Of a stretch of 64,000 nucleotides of DNA, positions 19,201 through 62,616 are shown piece by piece. The notes beneath the pieces were generated by a model that saw nothing but the letters and a program-made list of their open reading frames with translations, was not told where the DNA came from and made no database searches. Made by a program: the position numbers and the translations under genes. The stretch lies in the IMG/VR virus record IMGVR_UViG_3300021404_000005, positions 62,001 through 126,000 of that record. The stretch is one strand, 5' to 3'. The stretch comes from a virus. Positions within the stretch are counted from its first letter, which is position 1. Each line of letters begins with the position of its first letter.

Positions 19201-21531
19201 ATGCAGTTTGCCCTCACGCCTCGTGAGACAGTGCAGGACCTAGCTTGGGAGATGGTAGACAAGGGCTGGCAGCCGGTGTTCTGCCTAGCCAGGCAGAGCG
19301 GTTCCTTCACCCCGCAGCACGGTTCCACTGGTGGCTCAGCCCCCTACGGGTGGGACGGCAGGCAGCCTGATGGTGCACATCGACTGGCGTTCCGGCCGCC
19401 AACTAACGTCGTCGTCTTCGACGTAGACCATTACGACGGCAAGCGCGGAGCCGACACCATTGACGCGGCCGAAGCCCGTCTTGGACCGCTGCCTCTCACC
19501 TGGAAGGTGTCATCTCGTGGAGATGAAAACCCGTCAGGGCGGTATCTATTCCGCAAGCCCGTAGACCTTGACTTTACCGACAGTGCGCTTTCCGCATTCG
19601 GCACTGATGGTGTCACCAACGTGGAAATCGTGCGCACTGCGCACCGCTTCTCCTGGGCACCAGGTGACATCAACCACAAGAATGGCCAGGTGGTAATGTG
19701 CTTCGACCCTGACGGGGAGCCTGGAAAGCTGCCGAACGTTAATGACCTGCCCGAGCTGCCGGAAGCTTGGGTAGCTTATCTGCGTAACCCTCCTGTTCCG
19801 CAAACTGCCATGGCTTACAACGCTCCTTGCGACGGCCCGGAATGGTGGCTAGCGCAGGCTGATGACTCCTTGGGAACGCGCCAGGAGCTGGCCGGCTTCG
19901 GCATGAAGATAATGAACAGCCGCCAGCCTGTGGAAGTAGCTATGGAGCAGATGCTCCGGTGCTCACTTGCCCTGGACCCTGCACGTCCTTGGCGCGAGTC
20001 CGACCTTTGGCCGCTGCTGGACACCAATACTCAGCGCAAGGTAGCGGAGAACCTGGCCCGCCAGGACTTCGAGTACGAGTTCGTCAAGGACCAGTCCCAC
20101 GCCACTGACGAGCAGCTAACTAAAGAAGCAGAGCGTACGCAAGAGGAATACCAGCGCAAGAAGGCGTTTGATGAGGCTGCTAAGCAGCGTCTTCAGGCTG
20201 TTACTAACTTCGTGGTAGAGCAGAAGCCGGGTATTCCTATCTGCTTTGACCCTGATGACCCCGACTTCGAGCCTGAGCCGCAGGTAACCACCGCTAACTT
20301 CCACGACATGATTCGTGGTCTTCCTGTGTACAAGCAGGAAGTAGGCCGGATGCTAGCGCGCAAGATTGCGGAAAAGGATGTCCGCGACCTTTTGAAGAAA
20401 GAGTTCAAGGGGTTTCAGGACATCACTCAACAGCAGGAAATTCCGGAGCCGGAACGACTGCAAGTAGTAGGCAAGGACCAGAAGTCTTCAGCGGTAATTC
20501 CGCGCAAGACTGTAAGCGTGCTGTCAGGACACCGGGCGTCAGGTAAGACCTGGGTCGCAGCTGCTTTCGCAGCTCAGGAAATGCGGGCAGACCGACACGT
20601 AATCTGGGTGGACTTCGAGCGCCAGCCTGCACTGCTGCGGGAAAAGCTGAAGATTTGCGGCATAGTCTCAGATGAGGTTGTACGTAATCAGCTTCACTAC
20701 ACTGATGAACTTCCTCCGGACCTTGCGTTCGAAGCTGCTCAGTATCCTGACTGCCTTATCGTCATCGACGCCTGGCGCGGTCTGCAACAGGACGTGGCCC
20801 CTGCTACCTCAGCTAACGACGGCGACGCCGTAGAGCAGGTGTACGCAGACGTGCTTAATCCTGCTGTAGGCGTAGGCGCTACCATCGTAATCCTTGACCA
20901 CCTTGCCAAGACGGGCATAGGGGGCACGTTCGGTTCTGAGCGGAAGGAATCCGCTGCTGACTACGTGTTCAAGGTGGAGCAACTACAAGCATTCTCCCGT
21001 AAGTCCGAGGGTTACTCTGCCATGACGGTCACCAAGGACCGTTACGGGCACCACACAGTGGACACTGCGGTTGCTTACCTGTGGGTGCCGGCTGGTGATA
21101 GCGGCGGACCGTCCATCAAGGACTACCCCCGGATGCCTGAGCTACGTAACTGGTCGCCTGTGGCTGATGAAGTACCGACACCTGGAGAGGTGCTGAACGG
21201 CGACGAGACGCCCGCTAAGACTGTCAAGCAGCCGAGAGAGCGCACTAGCGACGAAGACGTAGCACGCCGTGACAGAGCCATCCTGGCCATCGTGGGCGAA
21301 GAACCTCTGAAATACGGCCAGCGTGAGCTAAGTCGCGAAGTGTGGGCACAGTACCCAGAAATCTTTGCGTCAGATGAAGCAGTGCGTTCTCCTATAAAAA
21401 GGCTAAAGCGTACCGGTCATCTAATTGCGGACAGCAGTGGCAAGTTTGAAGTACGTCAGTCTCCCATCCCTACACCTACTACTAAGGACATCGACCTGAG
21501 CCTCCCGGAGGACTCTGATGAAGATGACTAA
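19201..21531 (+). CDS. primase-polymerase / RepA-like helicase fusion
   Basis: 776 residues. N-terminal archaeo-eukaryotic-type prim-pol (about 1-200): FDVDHYDGKRG gives the DxD metal site, followed by SSRGDENPSGRYLF and VEIVRTAHRFSWAPG. Middle helical linker. C-terminal RecA/RepA-like ATPase: Walker A SGHRASGKTW (about 440), Walker B CLIVIDAW (about 517), ILDHLAK. A winged-helix-like end (REVWAQYPEIFASDEAVRSPIKRL) may bind DNA. It primes and unwinds at the phage fork and heads the rightward replication unit. Confidence 0.9.
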   Translation: MQFALTPRETVQDLAWEMVDKGWQPVFCLARQSGSFTPQHGSTGGSAPYGWDGRQPDGAHRLAFRPPTNVVVFDVDHYDGKRGADTIDAAEARLGPLPLTWKVSSRGDENPSGRYLFRKPVDLDFTDSALSAFGTDGVTNVEIVRTAHRFSWAPGDINHKNGQVVMCFDPDGEPGKLPNVNDLPELPEAWVAYLRNPPVPQTAMAYNAPCDGPEWWLAQADDSLGTRQELAGFGMKIMNSRQPVEVAMEQMLRCSLALDPARPWRESDLWPLLDTNTQRKVAENLARQDFEYEFVKDQSHATDEQLTKEAERTQEEYQRKKAFDEAAKQRLQAVTNFVVEQKPGIPICFDPDDPDFEPEPQVTTANFHDMIRGLPVYKQEVGRMLARKIAEKDVRDLLKKEFKGFQDITQQQEIPEPERLQVVGKDQKSSAVIPRKTVSVLSGHRASGKTWVAAAFAAQEMRADRHVIWVDFERQPALLREKLKICGIVSDEVVRNQLHYTDELPPDLAFEAAQYPDCLIVIDAWRGLQQDVAPATSANDGDAVEQVYADVLNPAVGVGATIVILDHLAKTGIGGTFGSERKESAADYVFKVEQLQAFSRKSEGYSAMTVTKDRYGHHTVDTAVAYLWVPAGDSGGPSIKDYPRMPELRNWSPVADEVPTPGEVLNGDETPAKTVKQPRERTSDEDVARRDRAILAIVGEEPLKYGQRELSREVWAQYPEIFASDEAVRSPIKRLKRTGHLIADSSGKFEVRQSPIPTPTTKDIDLSLPEDSDEDD

Positions 21532-21537
21532 GGCACT

Positions 21538-21681
21538 GGGTCACTGGGTTGGGTCACTGGGTCATGACCCAATAATCACCCTCAGTGTCACTGGGTCAGT
21601 GGGGTGGGTCATGGGTGCCCTTCTATGAAATAGAAGCCCTGACCCAACCCAGTGACCCGACACACGGTGACCCAACCCAAA
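21538..21681. repeat. iteron cluster with 19-bp perfect inverted repeat (candidate origin)
   Basis: The 210-base spacer between primase-helicase and polymerase contains about nine GGGTCA(C/T) or inverted GTGACCC units. The block GGGTCACTGGGTTGGGTCA at 21538-21556 is repeated exactly in inverse at 21640-21658, and GGGTCATGACCC is a palindrome in between. A CTTCTAT-gaa-ATAGAAG hairpin also lies inside. Clustered iterons beside the initiator genes are typical of replication origins. A regulatory RNA is the alternative. Confidence 0.65.
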
Positions 21682-21727
21682 AGAAAAGACACACCTGATG
21701 GTGAGAGTCGAAGCAGTGGAGACTGGA

Positions 21728-21741
21728 GGTAGGCTGAGCCA
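21728..21741 (+). promoter_or_regulatory. leaderless-type promoter of DNA polymerase gene
   Basis: GGTAGGCT ends six bases before the GTG start, the same 8-mer and spacing as at 26249 and 42236. The nearest GGAGG is 12 bases from the GTG, too far for a good ribosome site. Confidence 0.5.
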
Positions 21742-23910
21742 GTGGCAAGCCGACTGAGTGAAGATGAAAAGCTGGAGCGTGCTCGCATCAAGGCCGACAA
21801 GGCTGCTGCGAAGCTAGCCGAGCGGGAGGCCGCTGCGGCTGCCCGCAAGGCAGAGATGGAATTCCGCAAGCAAGAGCGTGCTGCCGAGAGCGCCAGGCTT
21901 AAGGCCGAAAAGGCCGAGGTAAAGATTCGTGAGAAGCTAGCGCTAGCAGTGGCCAAGCTGGAAGAGGCCGAGGGGCCTAAGCACCAGCTACCTGCTGTAG
22001 TGGGCCGCGATGGCGTAGTGGTCTCCGTCGATACCGCGACTGCCTGGAAAGTCCTTCAGGACTACCTGAGCGCTTTGTGCCTGGACGTGGAGACTTCTGG
22101 TTACCCGCCAGGGCACGAGCACTACGCGCTTCGTACGGTCCAGCTAGGCGGCGAGCATTACGCCGTAGTACTGGATGCTGATGACGAAGAGCAGATGGTC
22201 CTGGCGTCCCTGGCGCTCAAGATGTCTGTCAAGCTTCATGCGCACAGTGCTGTGGCTGACCTGGTGCCTTGCGTTATCGCGGGCCTTATTGGCTGGGACG
22301 AGGCTTGGGTCAAGATGCACGATTCCGTGCTCTACGCCAAGCTGACGGACCCTAAGCAATCTGGGTCCGATGCCGAGGGCCTTAAGGAGCTAGCCGCAGC
22401 CCTGCTGTCGCACTACGCCACCGCGCCTCTGGCCGAGAAAGCCAAGAACGCGTTGTTCAAGGTAATGGGTTGCCTGGTCAGTACTGAAATCACCACTCCA
22501 GTTGAGCGTAATGGCTGGTACATGGTGAACAAGAACTGCGAGACCATGATTGTCTATGCAGGTTCTGACGTACTGGACCTAGGTGCAGTGCTACGCATGC
22601 TGCCATCGCTGCCGGTGGACAACAGTGTGCTCGACCGTGAACGAGAGTTTGAGGCTATCTGCTCACGCGTTGCCTGGACCGGGTTCAAGCTAGACACTGA
22701 GCACGTTAAGTCAATGATTGCTAAGTACGAAAAGGAGCGCGAAGAACTTCTCGCTATCGTTCAGTACTTGTCAAGCGGACTCATAGAGAACCCGTCTTCA
22801 CCGGATACAGGCGAGAAGTTGTTGCAACTTTTCCCTGAGCTTGACGGCAAGCTGGAGCTAAGTGAGAAGACTGGTAAGCCATCCGCAGCTAAAGCATCTC
22901 TAGAGCGCCCTGCCAAGGAAGGTAACGTGCTGTGCAAGGCAATCCTTGCCTACAGGCACGCTGTGACCACCTTGGGTCTTCTTCTGCGGCCATTGGAGAA
23001 CCTGTGTGACTACGGTGATGGTCGCATGCGACCTACGGTGTACACCATCAACGCAGACACTGGTCGTACATCCTGCGTGCGTCCCAACGGTCAGCAGTTC
23101 TCTCGCCAGGGCGGCATCAGGCAGTGCGTGCGTGCTGACGAGGAGTTCCTAGGCATCTCAGCTGACTTCCAAGGGTGTGAAATCCGCGTTGCGGCAGCCC
23201 TGTCAGGAGACAAGGAAGTTCTAGAGGCTGAGATTTCGCCTAAGTGCTACCTGTGCGAAGGTAATCCTTGCACTTGCGGTAAGCACCACACCGGACTCCA
23301 CTGGCTGGCGGCTCACATCGCGTGGGGCGAAGGAGCTACCAAGGAGAACCGTTACGTTGCCAAGCGCATCATCTTCTCCAAGCTGTTCGGTGGCTCGCCT
23401 GCTGCTGGCGCACGTCAGACAGGCGTTACGCTTGAAGAGTCTCAGGCAGTACACGATGCGTTCTCCAAGATTGCTCCTGTGTACACGGCGTGGGACAAGT
23501 GGTTGCGCAAGTGCTTCTACGAGGGCAAGATGGTGTGGCGGGACTACGAGAACGGGCAGAACTACTGCAACGACCTACCTGGCAGCCGTCGCGGTATCTA
23601 TCGCACATACTCAGGCCGCAATATCTACATCAACAGCGGGCATGCTTTCGGTAATTACGCTATCCAGGGCACTGCTCGCGAACTCCTGGTAGATGGTGTC
23701 CTGCGGTGGAACAAGACGCGCTGGGCGCAGTATCCTATCCTACCTGTGCATGATGAGGTAATTTGCTTCGTAAAACAGGAGGAGGCAGACGAGGCAGTTC
23801 AGACCCTAAAAGAGTGCATGGAGACTGATGTTCTTAGCACACCTGACTTTTACGTAAAGATTGGGGCCGACCCTGACAAGCCTTTCGCCTATTGGCCCGA
23901 CAGCTCCTGA
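21742..23910 (+). CDS. polA-like: family A DNA polymerase
   Basis: 722 residues. 3'-5' exonuclease domain with LDVETSG and later D residues; polymerase motifs A (GISADFQGCEIRVAAALSG), B (RYVAKRIIFSKLFGG) and C (LPVHDEV). A CYLCEGNPCTCGKHH zinc knuckle is inserted between motifs A and B. Unusually, the first 80 residues form a charged Ala/Lys/Glu coiled coil before the exonuclease, which could tether it to the primase-helicase or another partner. Replicative polymerase of the phage. Confidence 0.95.
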   Translation: MASRLSEDEKLERARIKADKAAAKLAEREAAAAARKAEMEFRKQERAAESARLKAEKAEVKIREKLALAVAKLEEAEGPKHQLPAVVGRDGVVVSVDTATAWKVLQDYLSALCLDVETSGYPPGHEHYALRTVQLGGEHYAVVLDADDEEQMVLASLALKMSVKLHAHSAVADLVPCVIAGLIGWDEAWVKMHDSVLYAKLTDPKQSGSDAEGLKELAAALLSHYATAPLAEKAKNALFKVMGCLVSTEITTPVERNGWYMVNKNCETMIVYAGSDVLDLGAVLRMLPSLPVDNSVLDREREFEAICSRVAWTGFKLDTEHVKSMIAKYEKEREELLAIVQYLSSGLIENPSSPDTGEKLLQLFPELDGKLELSEKTGKPSAAKASLERPAKEGNVLCKAILAYRHAVTTLGLLLRPLENLCDYGDGRMRPTVYTINADTGRTSCVRPNGQQFSRQGGIRQCVRADEEFLGISADFQGCEIRVAAALSGDKEVLEAEISPKCYLCEGNPCTCGKHHTGLHWLAAHIAWGEGATKENRYVAKRIIFSKLFGGSPAAGARQTGVTLEESQAVHDAFSKIAPVYTAWDKWLRKCFYEGKMVWRDYENGQNYCNDLPGSRRGIYRTYSGRNIYINSGHAFGNYAIQGTARELLVDGVLRWNKTRWAQYPILPVHDEVICFVKQEEADEAVQTLKECMETDVLSTPDFYVKIGADPDKPFAYWPDSS

Positions 23911-26262: not shown

Positions 26263-27237
26263 ATGCTCAATATCTTGACTTACGGTGGCGTTGGCGACGG
26301 CGTTACAGACAACTCAGTGCCTATTCAAAAGGCTATCAACGCTGCCCTCACGGCAGTACCGGGTGCAGACGCCGAGATTTACTTTCCAACAGGTAAGTAC
26401 CTAATCAAGAGCAGGTCGGTTGTTCCTGCCATCTACAACTTCACCACCGGAGTCTGGACAGGTAATGCAGGCGGGACGGTCACCTTCAAGGGCGCGGGTA
26501 TTGGCAATACTTCACTAGTAGCAGGGGCCTATTTCCAGTACAGCGGCATGGTCAGTTATGCGACGACTGTTCCTGTGTCTCAGTTCAATGCTGAGGACAT
26601 TACATTCGATGGTAACTTCCAAGGCGCTGGCGGTACGCTGCCTATGCTTACATCAGGAGGTGCTGGGGCGCTTATCTCCTTGCCGTGGCCGGGTAATCCT
26701 ATGGCGGCGGGGAACACTCGTAATGGCCGTTATCACACCTTCACACGCTGTCGCTTCTACCGACCTACCGGCTACGGCTTCCAGCCTACGCAAGGCGTGC
26801 GTCTGCTGGGCTGTGATTTGGAGGCTATGGGCCAGCCTGGTCAGACAGTGATTACCTATGACAGTCTAGGTTCAGGCGCGGGTGAGGCTTTTGTCATCGG
26901 GTGTAGCTGGAAGGACTCACAGGGTAATTACGCTGACTTCGTAAGTGGCACTCCGGGTGATTTCATTCGGCTCGTCATGACAGGCTGCAATAGCTCCAAT
27001 CACCTTACGGGCGGCATCTATGCCTGCGGACAGCACTCAGTAATCACTGGTAATTCTCTGACTAACACCTATATGGGTGACCACGTGGGCTATGATGGCG
27101 GCACAGCCGCAGCTAACCGGGCCTACAACGTAGTGTCGGGTAATTGCTTCGTTAACCTGAACCTTGAAAACGGCGGCCTTTCCGCCCAGTACCACGACCT
27201 GTTCGAGGGTCTTAACATCGCGACGGGAGCATCTTAA
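26263..27237 (+). CDS. beta-helix tail spike-like protein
   Basis: 324 residues. Opens ILTYGGVGDGVTDNSVPIQKAI, the pectate-lyase-like N-cap, and continues as a right-handed beta-helix (FVIGCSW, VMTGCN, SVITGNSL). Its whole length matches residues about 150-545 of the protein at 27510 (for example GRYHTF.RC.FYRPTGYGFQ and DFVSGTPGDFIR.(V/I)M.GC). It lacks that protein's N-terminal adaptor and C-terminal domain. May cleave or bind host polysaccharide. Confidence 0.85.
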   Translation: MLNILTYGGVGDGVTDNSVPIQKAINAALTAVPGADAEIYFPTGKYLIKSRSVVPAIYNFTTGVWTGNAGGTVTFKGAGIGNTSLVAGAYFQYSGMVSYATTVPVSQFNAEDITFDGNFQGAGGTLPMLTSGGAGALISLPWPGNPMAAGNTRNGRYHTFTRCRFYRPTGYGFQPTQGVRLLGCDLEAMGQPGQTVITYDSLGSGAGEAFVIGCSWKDSQGNYADFVSGTPGDFIRLVMTGCNSSNHLTGGIYACGQHSVITGNSLTNTYMGDHVGYDGGTAAANRAYNVVSGNCFVNLNLENGGLSAQYHDLFEGLNIATGAS

Positions 27238-27239
27238 TC

Positions 27240-27476
27240 ATGAAGTACTTCGTTAAGACAGTGAAGCTACCGCACCTTAAGCCAGGCGCATCTCCTGTTG
27301 ACGGCGTTGAATTGCATGAAAGCCAGCGAATTGTTAGCGTCGTAGGAGCTACGGCACCACTAGCGGGCGCTACAGATATCGAACTCATCGTGCTAATCGA
27401 GGAGTCTCCCTATTTTGCCAGGGGCGGCCTTGTTCCGTTTAGCGTAGCTCCAGTTGAAACTAGGGACGGCTGCTAG
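27240..27476 (+). CDS. small beta protein in tail-spike region
   Basis: 78 residues, MKYFVKTVKLPHLKPGASPVDGVEL, beta-rich with no signal. It starts two bases after the spike gene. Could be a chaperone or cap for the spike. Not recognised. Confidence 0.6.
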   Translation: MKYFVKTVKLPHLKPGASPVDGVELHESQRIVSVVGATAPLAGATDIELIVLIEESPYFARGGLVPFSVAPVETRDGC

Positions 27477-27492
27477 ACTGTACTAAAGTACA
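27472..27492 (+). promoter_or_regulatory. TGCTAGACT promoter with palindrome at start site
   Basis: Extended -10 TGCTAGACT (also at 33192) followed immediately by the palindrome TGTACT-AA-AGTACA (27479-27492), which would cover the transcription start. The AGGAG site and GTG follow. Confidence 0.5.
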
Positions 27493-27509
27493 CCCTTTTA
27501 GGAGCTGTC

Positions 27510-29711
27510 GTGACTTATAACACCGTTACGTTGCAAGGTAACGTAATCTACACCAATAACAGTGGTGACGTTGTTACGGTCACGCTGGTGCCTACTACGT
27601 GGTACTACGACATCCCTAATGACACGATTGTAAACCCGCAGACGCTTTCAGCCACGGCTAATTCGTCTGGTTTTTGGTCTATTGCTGGGATTATCGACCC
27701 TACACCAGATGGCTCGGGCATTCAGTGGACACTTACCGTCAAGGACGCTAACGGGTCCACTGTGCTGTACAGCCAGCACGTCCAGATTGGTTACACGAAC
27801 GGGGCTACACAGCAATTCCTGTCACTGGCCCCTTCAGTTACTAATCCCTCTTTGCTGACTGCGTTGCCTCTGCCTGGAGGCACGGCTACAGTCGGTCAGG
27901 TGCCTATCGCCACCGGCAGCACGTCTAACACGACTTGGGGAAATAACACCGGATTCCTTAACGTGAAGACTGCGTACGGAGCTAAGGGTGACGCTAAGAA
28001 TGTTAACGATGGTGCTATCACCGCAAGTAGTAAGACCCTTACTAGTGCTAGTGCCAGTTTCACCGCAGCGGATGTCGGTAAGACTGTTATCGTGGCGGGA
28101 GCCGGGGCCTCAGGCACCTTTACTACGCTAACTACTACTATTGCGGCATTTGTATCTTCTACGTCTGTGACGCTTACAGCGGCTGCTACGAATACAGTCA
28201 GTGGTGCGGGCGTATGTTATGGTACTGATGATGTTAACGCTATTCAGGCTGCTGTTAATGATGCTCTGCTGGCTAGTGCTGGCACTCCCGGTAATGGAGC
28301 GACGGTCTACTTGCCGCCAGGGCGCTACTTGATAGCTGCCGCAGGTATATTCCCTGCTTACTATAACTTCACGAGCGGAGTAGCAACAGGCTATCCGAGT
28401 TCTACGGTGACGTTCCAAGGCGCTGACATGTCCAGCACATCCTTGGTGGCAGGCTCTCAGTTTATCTTTAATGGAATGCTGTCCTATAGCCGTGGAGCCA
28501 CTCACGTAAATGTGTGCCAGTTTAATTTCTCAGATGTAACGTTTGACGGTAACTGCGCTAGTGGTCTAGGCGGGGCGCTTAATATTGACGTGGCGGCCGG
28601 AGGGGCACTTGTCTCACTTCCTTGGCCTGGCACTAGCGCTTACACAGGTGCAGGTCTTATAAACAATGTTCGTTCAGGGCGCTATCATACGTTCATGCGC
28701 TGTAAGTTTTACCGACCTACAGGTTACGGCTTCCAGGCGACTACAGGTATCAGGTTGCTAGGCTGTGAACTCGTCAATATGGGCCAGTACAGCACAGGGC
28801 TTGGTGGCTATGACAATCTAGGTTCGGGGCCGGGAGACGCTATCGTAATCGGCTGTAACTGGCATGATTCTAGTGGTAACTTTGCTGACTTCGTTTCTGG
28901 AACTCCCGGTGACTTCATCCGGATGATTATGATTGGCTGCACTAGCACTAATCACACGGGCGGCGGCATCTGGGCGCTAGGCCAAGGGTCGATAATTGTC
29001 GGTAATAGCATGCAAAATAATACCGATGTAGGTTCCGGCGTGTTCTATGATGCGGGTACTAATGCGGCAAATAGGAGTCGCAATATTGTCGTAGGTAATG
29101 TATTCGTTAACATGAATGGGACGGCCACCAACGCTAATACTGTCCACTGGAATGGATTGTACGGAGATATTTACTCTAACAACTCAGTCGGAGACGGCAC
29201 GCTAGGCACCACGCTTGTTTTGGACAGCACGTCGGGTAACTCTAACAACCTTAATTACTCTCCGGCAGTGCTGAACGCCGCTCTAACAAATGTAGCGCTG
29301 CCAGGTGCAGGTGATGGTGTTTACACGAGGCTTATTACCTGGGGTAATCCAGCCCCTAATGTTACAGTGAACATCGCCAACTCTTCAGGCAATATCTGCA
29401 TTGCCCTGTACGCACCTAGTTCTACGGGTGGGCCTGGTACTCAAATGGCTACTACGGGTTCTGTTGCCTCTCCAGGCACGGGCTTGCAGACAATCAATTT
29501 CACCACTACGGTCACGCCGGGGCTTGGCTGGTGGATTGCTATTGCGGCAGACAATAACTCAGTGACCTTCAAGGGCTTTGCTTCTAGTGCGACAACAGCT
29601 CCGGATGGAGACTCGTACTGCTTCGCGGCTGCTAGCCAGATGCCGTTGCCCTCTACAGCCCCTGCTATTTCGGCGTCTATATCACCTAACTTCGTGCTGC
29701 TCTCAGCATAA
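27510..29711 (+). CDS. tail spike: adaptor, beta-helix, C-terminal domain
   Basis: 733 residues from a GTG behind AGGAG. Residues 1-115: beta-sandwich adaptor (VTLQGNVIYTNNSGDVVTV). About 145-545: pectate-lyase-like beta-helix duplicated from, or ancestral to, the 26263 protein. C-terminal 170 residues: jelly-roll-like (YTRLITWGNPAPNVTVNI, GLGWWIAIAADN), perhaps carbohydrate-binding. A virion fibre that recognises or degrades surface glycan is the likely role. Confidence 0.85.
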   Translation: MTYNTVTLQGNVIYTNNSGDVVTVTLVPTTWYYDIPNDTIVNPQTLSATANSSGFWSIAGIIDPTPDGSGIQWTLTVKDANGSTVLYSQHVQIGYTNGATQQFLSLAPSVTNPSLLTALPLPGGTATVGQVPIATGSTSNTTWGNNTGFLNVKTAYGAKGDAKNVNDGAITASSKTLTSASASFTAADVGKTVIVAGAGASGTFTTLTTTIAAFVSSTSVTLTAAATNTVSGAGVCYGTDDVNAIQAAVNDALLASAGTPGNGATVYLPPGRYLIAAAGIFPAYYNFTSGVATGYPSSTVTFQGADMSSTSLVAGSQFIFNGMLSYSRGATHVNVCQFNFSDVTFDGNCASGLGGALNIDVAAGGALVSLPWPGTSAYTGAGLINNVRSGRYHTFMRCKFYRPTGYGFQATTGIRLLGCELVNMGQYSTGLGGYDNLGSGPGDAIVIGCNWHDSSGNFADFVSGTPGDFIRMIMIGCTSTNHTGGGIWALGQGSIIVGNSMQNNTDVGSGVFYDAGTNAANRSRNIVVGNVFVNMNGTATNANTVHWNGLYGDIYSNNSVGDGTLGTTLVLDSTSGNSNNLNYSPAVLNAALTNVALPGAGDGVYTRLITWGNPAPNVTVNIANSSGNICIALYAPSSTGGPGTQMATTGSVASPGTGLQTINFTTTVTPGLGWWIAIAADNNSVTFKGFASSATTAPDGDSYCFAAASQMPLPSTAPAISASISPNFVLLSA

Positions 29712-29724
29712 ATAACCTCTATCA

Positions 29725-29763
29725 TATACCCTGGGATTCAGGAGCTGAATTCCGGGGTATATA
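29725..29763 (+). promoter_or_regulatory. long imperfect hairpin before the second spike gene
   Basis: ATATACCC...GGGGTATAT with inner GG-ATTCA/TGAAT-CC pairing, between two spike genes. No U-tract follows, so it is not a classic terminator; a TATCAT hexamer just upstream may be a -10. It could be an operator or processing site. Confidence 0.45.
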
Positions 29764-29782
29764 TTGACGTGGAGGTCCTTAA

Positions 29783-32701
29783 GTGACTACGAATAACGTG
29801 ACCGTCATCTGTGACCTTTACAACGGCGACGGAAGCATTAACTCAAGCGGCGGTACTATTGCGTTCACGCCTGCTTCTGTTGTTGCTAACGCCAGCAACC
29901 AGATTCAGAGCAGCACGCCGATTACTACTATGTTTACGGGCGGTTCTCTGCCCAGCGTCTCTTTGTTGGCTACTGATAACTCAGGACTAACGCCTACTAA
30001 CTGGGCATGGGCTGTGTCTTTCAGTGGCGTACAAGGCGCACCGTCGCCTTTTGCCGCTTTCGTGCCCGCTGGGCCTGTAAGTTTCACAGCTTCTGGAAGC
30101 CCAGCCGCGTTCACTTGGACACCTACCACTGAGCTAACTGTACTGCCTAACGGCACGGGTGTTCAGCTTACGGGCGGTTCTTTGCCTGGCGGTTTCAGCG
30201 CGGCTACCACGTATTATGTAGTGCAGTCCAGTGGAACTTCTTTCGAGCTAGCGGCTACGCCTGGGGCGGCATCAATAAATGCTTCAAGCTCTGGCTCGGG
30301 CACGGCGACTATCGTCAGCATCAACCTGAGTGCGCTACAGGCCAACTATAAGACGACTGTTGTTGCGGCTGCAACCGCACTTCCTGTTGTAACTACAGGT
30401 GTTGTCGTAAGCACAGCGGGCGCACTTAAGCTGAACACGTTGACTAGCGTGGACACCACTAGCGGTGGCCTTACCATGACGCTGCCTACGTCTGCTCCTA
30501 GCGGCTCTATAATTACGGCTGAGAAGTACGACAGTACAGGTAACGCAGTTACTCTGTCTGGCAGCATTCGAGGTATTTCGAGTGCTACTCTGAGCCTTTT
30601 GTATCAGAACGAGTCCGTTATGTTCACGTGCTTCGGTGGCACGTGGTGGCCCATGGCTTCTCACAAGCCGCTATCAGCGCTGGATAAGCGTTACCCGCAG
30701 GTTTACAGCGTAGTAGCTTATGGTGCTGACCCGACAGGACTTACCGACTCTACGACAGCATTCACTAACTGCATTAGTGCAATCCTAGGCGGCAATAACA
30801 CTCCGTCTACGACCACTCGGGTGGCGCTGGGCAAGATGTACCTGCCTGCCGGAAGCTACCTAATCTCCAGTGACATTCTTATCCAGTCCGTGCAGGGCTT
30901 CGTGATGGAAGGTGCGGGAGCTGAGCAGTCAATCATCGTAGCGTCAGGAACAGGCTTCACTACTGCGGTATTGAATATTGACGGCTCTTACGCGGGACTC
31001 TACAAGGGATTTACGGTCAAGGGTGACACCACAGAGACGGTTACTAACGGTATTAACCTCACATTCACCACAGGCTCTCACCGGTCTACGACGGGCAACC
31101 GTTTCCAGAACATCCGAATCCGGAATCTGAACTTTACTAACGGCTTCAGCATGATGGGCATCGGCACGCGTCAGGTCGACGGTACGCACCTTGAGAATAT
31201 CGTAATCGCAGGCCAGCAGACCACAGGTTCATGGTCTAACACGGGTAACTGGCAAACCGGATTCGCTGTCGGAAACGGTTCCTTCGGTAACATCTACGAC
31301 GAGGTAATGACTCGTTGCGATGCTGCGAACTGCTACTACGGTTACCAGGTTAACGCGTCGGGAATTGCACTATACGGTGCACAGCCGGCTAACAACTTCT
31401 GTGACTTCTGGATTAAGCCCGGTGCTCAAACCACCATCTCCAATATTCAGTCTCAGAACAGCGGTTACTTCCTTATCGCTCCGTCTAATTTCTCCGCTAT
31501 TCCGGTAACGTTCAGCGACGTACAGTACATTTCTAATTACGTGCAGAATGGCAGTTACCAGATTATCCAGCTCAACGGTGGCACCTGGAATTTCAATAAC
31601 TTCAACGGAGCCTACACTGTTGTTAGCTCCACTTACGAACCTGGCACCATTTTCCTAGCGGGCAGTACAGCTACACGTCCTTGTGTGGTTAACTTCAACG
31701 GCCTTACCATGAACAATGACCGGGTTAGTTGCTTTGGTTCACTTAGCCACGTTAACCTAACGGTCCAAAATTATAATAACTACGCGCCTAACACGGGTCT
31801 TTACACTTACGCTTCAGGTGATGTGTCATCCTTTAACACAGGTAACCTGTGGATTAACGGTGGCGGCGTTACTGTACCTCAGGTTAACTTCATCTCCGCG
31901 ACGGGCAACACGCAGTACACCGTACCTACAGGTGCACAGACAGTTTACGTAGCACTTTGTGCCGGCGGCGGCGGCGGCGGTAGCGGTGCGCTAAGTGCGT
32001 CGGCTGCGGCAGGTGGTGGTTCAGGTGGCTCAGGCGGTGCGTACAGCACAGCTACATTCCAAGCTTCTCAACTTACAAGTTCCATTACTGTATCTGTAGG
32101 CGCAGGAGGGACTGCCGGAGCCGCACAAACTACGCCAGGAAGTCCGGGAAACGCGGGTGGTAATGGTGGCACTAGCGCATTCGGTTCTTACTTGTGGGCA
32201 CACGGCGGTAGCGCCGGCGGTGCTGGCACAGTAGCGAATACGTCAGTTGTAGCGGGCGCTGCGGCCCCCACGGCGGGCATGTTTGTCGGAAGTGCGGGTG
32301 GCCCTACTGTAACAGGTTCTGCGATAGGTGGAGCGGGCGTATCTAACGTGACCAGCGGTGGCGGCGCGGGCGGTGGCGTTATCGCGGCTGGTACGCCGTT
32401 TGGTGGCGGCGGTACAGGTTCAGTAGTACTTAACGCCACTAATAACGTAGGTGTCGGCGGTGTAGTGAGCGGTGCTCTTCCCTCTGCGGGGCCGGTATCC
32501 GCGCAGGGCTGTACTACAGGTGGTGGTGGTGGTGGTGCTGCGGTTGCAGGAGCGTCTACTACAGCTCAGAACGGCGCTAACGGGGCTACGAGTACAGGTG
32601 GCGGTGGCGGCGGCGGTGGCGGCTGTTCTGGCGGGACATCTTCCGGCGCAGGTGGTGTAGGCGGTTCCGGTTTCGCGCTTATAATTGCGTTCTTCCAGTA
32701 A
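29783..32701 (+). CDS. tail spike with beta-helix and Gly-rich C-terminus
   Basis: 972 residues, GTG start behind GGAGG. N-terminal adaptor, a linker, then about 310-700 a beta-helix (VYSVVAYGADPTGLTDSTTAF opening, then FTVKGDT and NIRIRNL strands). The last 230 residues are a Gly-rich domain (TQYTVPTGAQTVYVALCAGGGGGG) like that of the 230-3058 protein, ending GSGFALIIAFFQ. Two tail proteins sharing this tip suggests a common assembly or receptor surface. Confidence 0.85.
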   Translation: MTTNNVTVICDLYNGDGSINSSGGTIAFTPASVVANASNQIQSSTPITTMFTGGSLPSVSLLATDNSGLTPTNWAWAVSFSGVQGAPSPFAAFVPAGPVSFTASGSPAAFTWTPTTELTVLPNGTGVQLTGGSLPGGFSAATTYYVVQSSGTSFELAATPGAASINASSSGSGTATIVSINLSALQANYKTTVVAAATALPVVTTGVVVSTAGALKLNTLTSVDTTSGGLTMTLPTSAPSGSIITAEKYDSTGNAVTLSGSIRGISSATLSLLYQNESVMFTCFGGTWWPMASHKPLSALDKRYPQVYSVVAYGADPTGLTDSTTAFTNCISAILGGNNTPSTTTRVALGKMYLPAGSYLISSDILIQSVQGFVMEGAGAEQSIIVASGTGFTTAVLNIDGSYAGLYKGFTVKGDTTETVTNGINLTFTTGSHRSTTGNRFQNIRIRNLNFTNGFSMMGIGTRQVDGTHLENIVIAGQQTTGSWSNTGNWQTGFAVGNGSFGNIYDEVMTRCDAANCYYGYQVNASGIALYGAQPANNFCDFWIKPGAQTTISNIQSQNSGYFLIAPSNFSAIPVTFSDVQYISNYVQNGSYQIIQLNGGTWNFNNFNGAYTVVSSTYEPGTIFLAGSTATRPCVVNFNGLTMNNDRVSCFGSLSHVNLTVQNYNNYAPNTGLYTYASGDVSSFNTGNLWINGGGVTVPQVNFISATGNTQYTVPTGAQTVYVALCAGGGGGGSGALSASAAAGGGSGGSGGAYSTATFQASQLTSSITVSVGAGGTAGAAQTTPGSPGNAGGNGGTSAFGSYLWAHGGSAGGAGTVANTSVVAGAAAPTAGMFVGSAGGPTVTGSAIGGAGVSNVTSGGGAGGGVIAAGTPFGGGGTGSVVLNATNNVGVGGVVSGALPSAGPVSAQGCTTGGGGGGAAVAGASTTAQNGANGATSTGGGGGGGGGCSGGTSSGAGGVGGSGFALIIAFFQ

Positions 32702-55805: not shown

Positions 55806-57230
55806 TCACGGCTTCATCCCACGGTGTCGTCGCAGGATTCGCTTGACCATCATCAGGCACTGCAAGGCAGTAAGCACGGCAAGGATACGCCACCCTGTAA
55901 GCAGGGTGTAGTCCTGCCAGTCACCGGGAAGGTGCTGCCACGCAGTAACTACTCCGTAAACGAATCCGATGAGTAGCAAGGAGAACCCGACAATCTTAGG
56001 GCCAAAGCCCATCGACTTACCGGACTCTGCTTTCTTCTGTGTCGCCCAGCCATCACTGCCCGTGCCCGTAAGGACCTTGAACGTTGCCACTGTCATGGAC
56101 GTAGCCCGGAAGATGAGGTAAAGCTCTACCGGAACCAGCGTTGCCGCTGATACCACATCCAGTGGTGTCCTGTTAGGCATCCGCATTGTCTGCCGGATGT
56201 TCAGCAAGATAGCTAGCGCTGGCGGGATAAGCCAGTACCAAGACCAGTCAAACTTATGCACCGACAGTGAAGCGGTAAGCATCACGACAAACATCAGTCG
56301 CATGAACCCATTGAATAGCAGTCCTGCTACCTGAGTAGCCAGAGTTGCCGTCCACTTGTTCAGTCCCGATGTCATGATGAGCCGTGCGATACCCTGGTCC
56401 CACTTCTGGCGCTGTGCCCACAGGGACTTCAGGTTGTGCATGGCACCGGGGTAGGCCCTAGCCTCAGGGTTAACTGTAGTCTTGTAGCCAAGGCCACGCA
56501 GGTCACCCGTGAGCTGCATGTCCTCAACCTGGCTGGAGGTGTCCCACGGGACGCCCATGCGCTTCTCAGCCACCTTCAGCAGCGCGCTAGCACGGAACAG
56601 GCTGAGCTGACCGCCAAGGACGTAGGTGTTGCGCTTGTTGTGCAGGAGTGAGTCAGTCCAGTCACTGAACTCCACTCGCTGCATGCGAACTAGCATTCCC
56701 CCCTCTTGGTGGAACGTGTAACGTGCCATTACGCCACCAACGTTTCGGTCCTCGCGTAGTTCCTTCTCCAGATGCTGCAACGCATCTGGCTCAAGAACAG
56801 TGTCAGCATCGACACCCGCGATGTATTCGAAGCCCTTGTGGTGGTGTTCCCACCCCTGGTTAAGGGCACCGGTCTTCTTGTCGCGATTACCGACAGTCTC
56901 CATCACAGTGGCACCGTACTGCCGCGCAACACCAGCAGTGTTGTCACCACAGTTGTCAGCAATAACAACGATGCGGTCTGGCGTACGAGTCTGACGCTTA
57001 AGAGCAGTGATGGTAACGCCGATGGAATCCTGCTCGTCGTGGGCGGGAATCATTACGAGAACTCTGCCAGTCTTAACAGCCTTAGCAGGGTCACGGTAGC
57101 GAATCTTGTCCACCGCACGGGAAACTTCACTGACAAGAACCCTAGCGGACTGCTTGAGCTTTGCAGTCGGGCTGAGTCGTGGTGCGCGAGCGGCTGGCGG
57201 TGTCCACAGAACGACATCGGTCCCAGTCAT
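55806..57230 (-). CDS. cellulose-synthase-like processive glycosyltransferase (GT2)
   Basis: 474 residues. GT2 catalytic core: MIPAHDEQDSIG, ADNCGDNT, GVDADTVLE (DxD), SQVEDMQLTG (ED) and QRQKWDQG (Q.xRW-type), followed by four or five membrane spans in the C-terminal 180 residues. This is the layout of BcsA, hyaluronan and Streptomyces CslA synthases, which polymerise and export beta-glycans from UDP-sugars. There is no PilZ domain. The next gene upstream encodes a secreted GH5 enzyme, recalling bcsA-bcsZ. Confidence 0.9.
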   Translation of the reverse strand: MTGTDVVLWTPPAARAPRLSPTAKLKQSARVLVSEVSRAVDKIRYRDPAKAVKTGRVLVMIPAHDEQDSIGVTITALKRQTRTPDRIVVIADNCGDNTAGVARQYGATVMETVGNRDKKTGALNQGWEHHHKGFEYIAGVDADTVLEPDALQHLEKELREDRNVGGVMARYTFHQEGGMLVRMQRVEFSDWTDSLLHNKRNTYVLGGQLSLFRASALLKVAEKRMGVPWDTSSQVEDMQLTGDLRGLGYKTTVNPEARAYPGAMHNLKSLWAQRQKWDQGIARLIMTSGLNKWTATLATQVAGLLFNGFMRLMFVVMLTASLSVHKFDWSWYWLIPPALAILLNIRQTMRMPNRTPLDVVSAATLVPVELYLIFRATSMTVATFKVLTGTGSDGWATQKKAESGKSMGFGPKIVGFSLLLIGFVYGVVTAWQHLPGDWQDYTLLTGWRILAVLTALQCLMMVKRILRRHRGMKP

Positions 57231-61837: not shown

Positions 61838-62616
61838 TAGAACCCCGTGATAACTCGTATCGTCTTTCGCCACATCGGGTCATTGGGATGCCAAGTAGGC
61901 CCGTAAACAGGGTCAGCTTCGGTGTTTTGCTTGATTGAATCGTGAACCGGATTGGTGAAAGGCGTATTCTTGCCACCCCTGAAGACCGGAATCCCGAATG
62001 TCTTCTCCAAGTCGTCAGTAACGTCCTTGGGGGTGTTATGCACTACGAACAGGTGGGTTAGTGTGGCCTTTTCGCACCGGAAGCCCTTTTCCCCAATTAC
62101 GACGCGACTGCTACCCTCAATACGCCCCGCCACTGGCCAGTAAACAGCACTACCGCTTCTATCCATGGCGAAATCAGCGTCTGCTGGCAGGTCCCAGTAG
62201 GCCCAGATGCCACACCCGCACTCATCCGGCTTGTCCAGTACTCGCGGGCAGTTAATAACTGCGGAAACTCTAGAGGGCCAGCCACCGATAAAAGGCCACC
62301 CCACTGATTCATCGCGTGAGCACTTAGCTTCCATGACCTTAGTGGGCCATTGCTGCCCCCACTTACCGAACAGTCCATGAGAACAACGGCACGCACCACC
62401 AGAATACCAAGACGAGTGGTAACCGAGCCGTTTAAGCAGCTCCTCAGAACTGTAACTGTATGCGTCGAACCTATCGTATGCGTCCATAGCATTGTTCATA
62501 ATCCGGCACGTGTTGTTATGCCGCCGGAAATTCCAAGAGCGGTAGCCGATGACCTTACCTAGCCCCAGGTCCCAGCCATCGGGTTCCCGCTTTTCTGTAA
62601 AGCCCTCTAGCGGCAT
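61837..62616 (-). CDS. CGCGFWA/GFRC family protein (copy 3)
   Basis: 259 residues. GYRSWNFRR, GKWGQQWPTKVMEAKC, ECGCGIWAYWDLP, RIEGSSRVVIGEKGFRCEKATL. Extra CRCSHG near residue 75. Followed at once by the zinc-ribbon paralogue. Function unknown. Confidence 0.8.
   Translation of the reverse strand: MPLEGFTEKREPDGWDLGLGKVIGYRSWNFRRHNNTCRIMNNAMDAYDRFDAYSYSSEELLKRLGYHSSWYSGGACRCSHGLFGKWGQQWPTKVMEAKCSRDESVGWPFIGGWPSRVSAVINCPRVLDKPDECGCGIWAYWDLPADADFAMDRSGSAVYWPVAGRIEGSSRVVIGEKGFRCEKATLTHLFVVHNTPKDVTDDLEKTFGIPVFRGGKNTPFTNPVHDSIKQNTEADPVYGPTWHPNDPMWRKTIRVITGF

Follow-up and report, generated by a model that had tools for sequence, protein, structure and literature searches.

In lambda, the initiator O and its iterons vary together among relatives, and P4 carries two separate iteron regions (ori1 and crr). 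The P4 alpha protein is a primase-helicase that, according to PMC4234260, uses its C-terminal winged helix to bind iterons. The C-terminal domain of SaPI Rep recognises iterons located directly downstream of its own gene (PMC7581432), and in PICI origins an AT-rich region is flanked by two sets of iterons (PMC6092414). pRN1 depends on a stem-loop located immediately 3′ of its prim-pol gene; the stem-loop sequence varies between conserved flanks, and no sequence-specific binding to this stem-loop could be shown (PMC4234260). In the Vibrio PLE satellites, experiments demonstrated that the DNA-binding domain of RepA and the origin iterons swap together, possibly driven by an origin-directed nuclease (PMC8263062). 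The principle of an initiator C-terminus paired with downstream iterons is already known.

The locus described here belongs to a large phage for which no isolate was found and lies within a stretch of 64,000 nucleotides, hereafter the window, which covers record positions 62001–126000 of a 163,509-bp virus contig (genome G000). A gene of 776 aa for a prim-pol/RecA-like (AAA_25/KaiC-like) helicase, the proposed initiator (19201–21531, + strand), is followed by a gene for a family A DNA polymerase (PolA; 21742–23910, + strand; Pfam DNA_pol_A 1.5e-30). The initial annotation had placed a candidate theta-type replication origin between these two genes, and its region, 21532–21741, is exactly the interval from the prim-pol/helicase stop to the PolA start. 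Nine GGGTCA units were found within 138 bp of this gap (array 1), five on the + strand and four on the − strand. Eight of them read TGGGTCA (starts 21537+, 21550+, 21558+, 21565−, 21592+, 21605+, 21640− and 21668−) and one reads CGGGTCA (21653−), the first beginning 6 bp past the prim-pol stop codon. The units form two oppositely oriented sets, a left half-array of six TGGGTCA units (21537–21611) and a right half-array of three units on the − strand (21640–21674). Between units 6 and 7, the sets flank a 17-bp hairpin with a 7-bp stem, CTTCTAT-GAA-ATAGAAG (21620–21636). A 19-bp perfect inverted repeat (21538–21658), with arms at 21538–21556 and 21640–21658 and 83 nt between them, is explained as two pairs of units in opposite orientation. 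The iterons, the inverted repeat, the hairpin and their location were thus all recovered as initially described. Array 1 is followed by a conserved PolA gene leader (CACACCTGA ... GGAGGTAGGCTGA; 21690–21741, + strand), where alignment identity to a close relative resumes.

Array 1 contains no AT-rich melting segment (lowest 40-bp GC content of 0.45), and no DnaA box was found within 1.5 kb of it in either the window phage or its relative. Neither the GC skew, which the initial annotation had proposed as a check, nor the strand-separated third-position skew changed at array 1, and the extremes of the cumulative skew differed between the window phage and its relative. Each strand of array 1, taken as single-stranded DNA, folded better than shuffled sequences (z = −6.2 and −5.1), much of the excess being due to the inverted units themselves. 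A terminator or promoter reading of array 1 was rejected, with no terminator-like or promoter-like site found. The replication region also holds pectin-lyase-like and tail-fibre-like genes that adjoin PolA (26263–32701). The genome of the window phage encodes 35 tRNA genes, a near-complete set (L007:8813-13323).

Chance clustering of the units was rejected by 40 first-order Markov simulations of the whole genome, in which 7-mer copies were counted within 250 bp. The largest cluster in the simulated genomes had three or four copies, and the real genome has clusters of eight and nine, both of TGGGTCA; the same 7-mer scan found no further cluster above five in the window phage genome. The cluster of nine (array 2; record positions 149251–149426) is 65.7 kb from array 1 and was missed in the initial annotation because it lies outside the window. 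Array 2 is composed mostly of direct repeats of the same word as array 1 and holds a 40-bp segment of 38% GC between units. It also carries a box, CCGCAGGTCAG, which is absent from array 1 and occurs as a single copy in each of the whole genomes of the window phage and its relative G001. To the right of array 2 is a long hairpin (GTGTGGT..CTGTGTC / GACACAG..ACCACAC; record positions 149446–149514, L014:9446-9514), which is conserved in G001 (L024:5069-5137; z = −4.0 and −5.1 for folding as RNA). The region around array 2 gave no match in Rfam, and this hairpin is possibly part of an origin or a small RNA.

The relative G001 is a 181-kb IMG/VR contig that is syntenic with the window phage over its length (median identity of 82% over 242 matched reading-frame pairs; 93% for PolA). 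No named phages with DNA similar to the window phage and no prophage relatives in GTDB contigs were found. Between prim-pol and PolA, G001 also has nine units, with the word GGTGTGC(T/C), or TGTGC(T/C) in short, instead of TGGGTCA. The order and orientation of the units are identical in the two phages (+ + + − + +, hairpin, − − −), and array 1 of G001 has a 38% GC segment. In the more distant relative G002 (PolA 61% identical overall), the word is GGGGTCA, and a hairpin separates six + units from three − units that follow. The hairpin between units 6 and 7 occupies the same slot in G001 and G002 as in the window phage, with a different sequence. The G002 contig ends at its array and does not include prim-pol; it stops at the array (L006:1) as if the repeats broke the assembly. 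The initial annotation had counted a lack of iteron conservation in relatives against an origin. The iteron sequence is indeed not kept in the close relative, but the number, order and orientation of units and the central hairpin are, which argues for function.

Array 2 is present at syntenic positions in the window phage and G001, and the alignment over it is nearly gap-free. All eight + strand TGGGTCA units align in register with TGTG(C/T)(C/T)(A/G) in G001, differing at position 3 (G to T) in 8/8 and at position 5 (T to C) in 7/8. The inter-unit spacers are 37% identical and the right flank is 79% identical. A 20-bp segment with ACCGCAGGTCAGG, of which the box CCGCAGGTCAG is the 11-mer core, is 100% identical in the two phages. 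The word has therefore been switched at both arrays, and array 2, being far from the prim-pol C-terminus and array 1, must have changed in a separate event. Elsewhere in the window, a 474-aa protein (55806–57230) corresponds to a 786-aa version in G001, with the match split around a long insertion that is possibly an intein or an inserted domain.

The prim-pol/helicase protein showed similarity to Pfam Prim-Pol (residues 49–179, E = 9.6e-7) and PHROG 1156 DNA primase (6.2e-25). Its helicase part matched AAA_25 (5.3e-5) and a KaiC-type ATPase (1e-4), both below curated cut-offs, and no D5_N or SF3 helicase match was found in Pfam. Identity to the G001 ortholog was 88–100% per 50-residue segment up to residue 600 and 92% in residues 601–650; it then fell to 52%, 36% (residues 701–750) and 52% in the remaining segments. 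Overall identity is 87%, with about 94% over residues 1–650 and 36–40% in the C-terminal winged-helix-like domain (residues ~676–756; 21226–21468, + strand). In a set of 84 ortholog pairs, each with at least 150 aligned positions, this was the largest ungapped local drop next to a core identity above 0.9; bigger drops belonged to a giant tail-type protein, to one pair in which a long insertion interrupts the match, and to proteins of lower core identity, and some of them were gap-driven. Third-position divergence was about 0.24 in the core and reached 0.60 in residues 700–750, which makes the C-terminal segment older than the remainder of the gene. Therefore, recombinational exchange of a cassette comprising the C-terminus and the adjacent array 1 appears at least as likely as their step-by-step co-evolution, judging from this divergence.

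Since the full-length AlphaFold2 (AF2) model with two sequences had a mean pLDDT of 33, the C-terminal segment was modelled separately. It showed the topology H-H-H-E-E at a low-confidence pLDDT of 60. A Foldseek search of this model against the PDB returned mostly winged helices as best matches, all of them weak (best E = 0.056, none significant at 0.05), and a sequence search of solved structures gave weak matches only, to RNA 2′-phosphotransferases (E = 0.45). On this low-confidence model and these weak fold matches, the domain may be described as winged-helix-like; together with its divergence, they make it the proposed iteron reader. No paralogue of the domain, such as an origin-directed nuclease, was found in the genomes of the window phage or its relative. 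The acidic tail that follows it, DxDLSLPEDxDED (21480–21531), is kept in both phages although the preceding domain diverges, and is reminiscent of acidic tails that contact PolA-type polymerases.

A survey of prim-pol-bearing actinophages, in which the DNA 3′ of prim-pol was scanned for arrays, revealed arrays directly or closely 3′ of the gene in most of them. Inverted arrays lie directly 3′ in Terapin (ATTACGG), LilyPad and LittleFella (GGTTACG type), NorManre and Wojtek (CGGTTAC), TinyDot and Tarzan (CGTGGAC), Santhid and Reyja (CCTGGAA), DumpTruck (AACGGTA) and MrMiyagi (AACCGAA). Weaker or displaced arrays were found in Suzy, Phreeze and Madruga. No array was found directly 3′ of prim-pol in REQ1, P1201, SchoolBus, SirHarley, Foxboro, Kimchi1738 and Patio; the scan takes the commonest 7-mer, and weak arrays could therefore be missed. 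Several surveyed phages have an AT-rich core between the array halves, for example TATATATA. Two annotated hypothetical genes, Santhid gene 52 (L104:22265-22495) and TinyDot gene 58 (L109:4819-5169), coincide with arrays. Terapin, NorManre and MrMiyagi encode D5_N + DUF5906 helicases. The surveyed phages have D5/SF3-type or DUF3987 helicases and the window protein is AAA_25/KaiC-like, so the layout spans helicase types, with arrays following prim-pol across phages with three different ones.

The same position is occupied in two distant phages with the capsid gene in common. G003 (L091:4084-8871) and G010 (L099:1837-6525) each have a single reading frame, of 1595 and 1562 codons, respectively, for the prim-pol, an SF3-type helicase (DUF5906) and a polymerase A domain. 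The strongest or joint strongest 7-mer cluster of each lies in frame at the prim-pol/PolA junction, where (A/G)TGGAGGGT units of either orientation surround a tract of alternating CA/CG. The junction position of the array is thus kept even where the DNA is coding. The arrays annotated as genes in Santhid and TinyDot may be either misannotations or arrays in frame as in these two phages. The two polymerase parts of the fused gene are of different types.

In two pairs of known Gordonia phages, too, the array word and the prim-pol C-terminus changed together. As a control, Santhid and Reyja share the word CCTGGAA, and their proteins are 98% identical in the core and 96% in the last 100 aa. Santhid and Tarzan, the first Gordonia pair, have the same core identity of 98%, but their words differ (CCTGGAA and CGTGGAC) and the last 100 aa are only 76% identical. 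The other Gordonia pair, Terapin and Suzy, has different words, with 96% identity in the core and 73% in the last 100 aa. The sample is small, three switch pairs including the window phage and G001 and one no-switch pair, and the Suzy array was weakly scored. Tarzan and TinyDot share a word with C-termini that are only 36% identical (core 56%); therefore, two domains need not be closely alike to go with one and the same word. When TinyDot was used to triangulate the specificity residues, five sites in the last 80 columns favoured Tarzan and five favoured Santhid. The initial annotation had suggested that the C-terminal winged helix of the adjacent prim-pol/helicase reads the iterons, and this comparison of three switch pairs and one control supports it well. 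It is very probable, from sequence comparison, that the TGGGTCA units are read by the prim-pol C-terminal domain.

We consider it likely that array 1 comprises the sites of the initiator C-terminal domain and acts as an origin, or as half of a two-part origin together with array 2. The initiator would bind the units via its C-terminus, as the co-variation suggests, and SaPI Rep offers an analogy for the next step, in which the oppositely oriented half-arrays may load helicase rings that face one another. Priming by the prim-pol domain could follow, possibly at exposed hairpin DNA, and the adjacent PolA would extend the primers. Of the theta origin proposed initially, the initiator-binding array is thus well supported, and firing at this site is only plausible given that array 1 has no AT-rich segment and no DnaA boxes. 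The absence of these elements and of a skew signal makes it possible that array 1 is a control site and array 2 the origin. Array 1 would then be an autoregulatory operator, a titration or handcuffing locus, or a crr-like helper for the same protein. Array 2 indeed looks more origin-like than array 1. It combines the box CCGCAGGTCAG and the 40-bp segment of 38% GC with a conserved structured segment beside it, and array 1 has neither box nor AT-rich segment. In 20 known phages, the 9.5 kb of DNA that follows prim-pol contained 13 copies of the box, as CGCAGGT(C/A), in 8/20 regions, an enrichment of about 9-fold over the 1.4 copies that the rest of the loci would predict (Poisson p = 3e-9, with the related phages not independent). 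We would guess that the box is read by an invariant component of the machinery, for example the priming domain. However, known phages with one array, such as Terapin and TinyDot, have it directly 3′ of prim-pol, in the position equivalent to array 1, and array 1 of G001 does contain a 38% GC segment. The inverted halves and hairpin of array 1 are also conserved and more elaborate than an operator needs. We therefore regard a mere control site as unlikely, though still a serious alternative, and lean slightly towards initiation at array 1 rather than only at array 2.

It is far less probable that the units serve another phage protein (a repressor, a ParB-like protein or a nucleoid protein) as operators or centromere-like sites and are unrelated to initiation. 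Repressor and partition systems also typically use short repeated sites at two loci, but the prim-pol C-terminus tracks the word in three pairs and is constant in the no-switch pair, and the arrays accompany prim-pol across three helicase types. That array 1 acts as RNA in the space from prim-pol to PolA, be it a terminator, an attenuator or a structured leader, is highly improbable in spite of the strong inverted repeats, the hairpin and the folding scores in the PolA leader, since the inverted unit in the left half serves no simple stem, array 2 uses the same word in mostly direct repeats, and word changes track the DNA-binding domain.

Within the favoured reading of array 1 as initiator sites, the two unlinked arrays read by one prim-pol/helicase may tentatively be seen as a two-part replicator of large soil phages. 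The word and its reading domain would be exchanged, or co-evolve, together at three places, namely the C-terminus, the adjacent array and the array ~66–77 kb away. The order, orientation and spacing of units and the CCGCAGGTCAG box would persist, and in other lineages the array lies within the coding frame of a fused prim-pol/PolA gene. If origin-targeting antagonists drive the switching, phage origins would be the scene of a code-changing arms race. An origin 3′ of the gene has been proposed for prim-pol replicons, among them pRN1 and many phages, and what the C-terminal domain targets there is the issue. The phages compared here provide natural word-switch pairs with near-identical cores (98% between Santhid and Tarzan, and 97–98% when Reyja is included), and the arrays can serve as practical markers of candidate origins across many actinophages, cultured or not.

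Compared with the known systems, the locus resembles SaPI and PICI origins in having iterons directly downstream of the initiator gene and two iteron sets. It differs in its prim-pol with a RecA-like helicase, where SaPI and PICI have DUF927- or D5-type/SF3 proteins, in the hairpin rather than AT-rich segment between the halves, and in a second array of the same word 65.7 kb off. With the pRN1 ORF904 and phage BIP-1 loci it shares an archaeo-eukaryotic prim-pol and a C-terminal winged helix, the latter predicted here, and array 1, like the pRN1 origin, has a stem-loop directly 3′ of the gene with variable sequence between conserved flanks. However, pRN1 has an SF3 helicase and is reported without iterons, whereas the window phage has a RecA-like helicase and clear repeats that co-vary with the C-terminus. 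P4 alpha is similar in having two iteron regions, but it has a Toprim primase instead of a prim-pol (AEP), and the spacing and layout of the regions differ. The PLE RepA belongs to the RepA_N type, has neither primase nor helicase and acts at one origin, in contrast to the two unlinked arrays switched together here. In lambda, the iterons are inside the O gene and are read by the N-terminus of O, which has no primase or helicase; array 1 starts after the stop codon, and in the window protein the N-terminus is conserved and the C-terminus varies. Theta origins of iteron plasmids differ from array 1 in their AT-rich segment and DnaA boxes. Within a limited search of the open-access literature, the new features are the unlinked second array that switches together with the first, a unit grammar that is conserved while its word has changed, the version with a RecA-like helicase, the in-frame arrays and the shared box.
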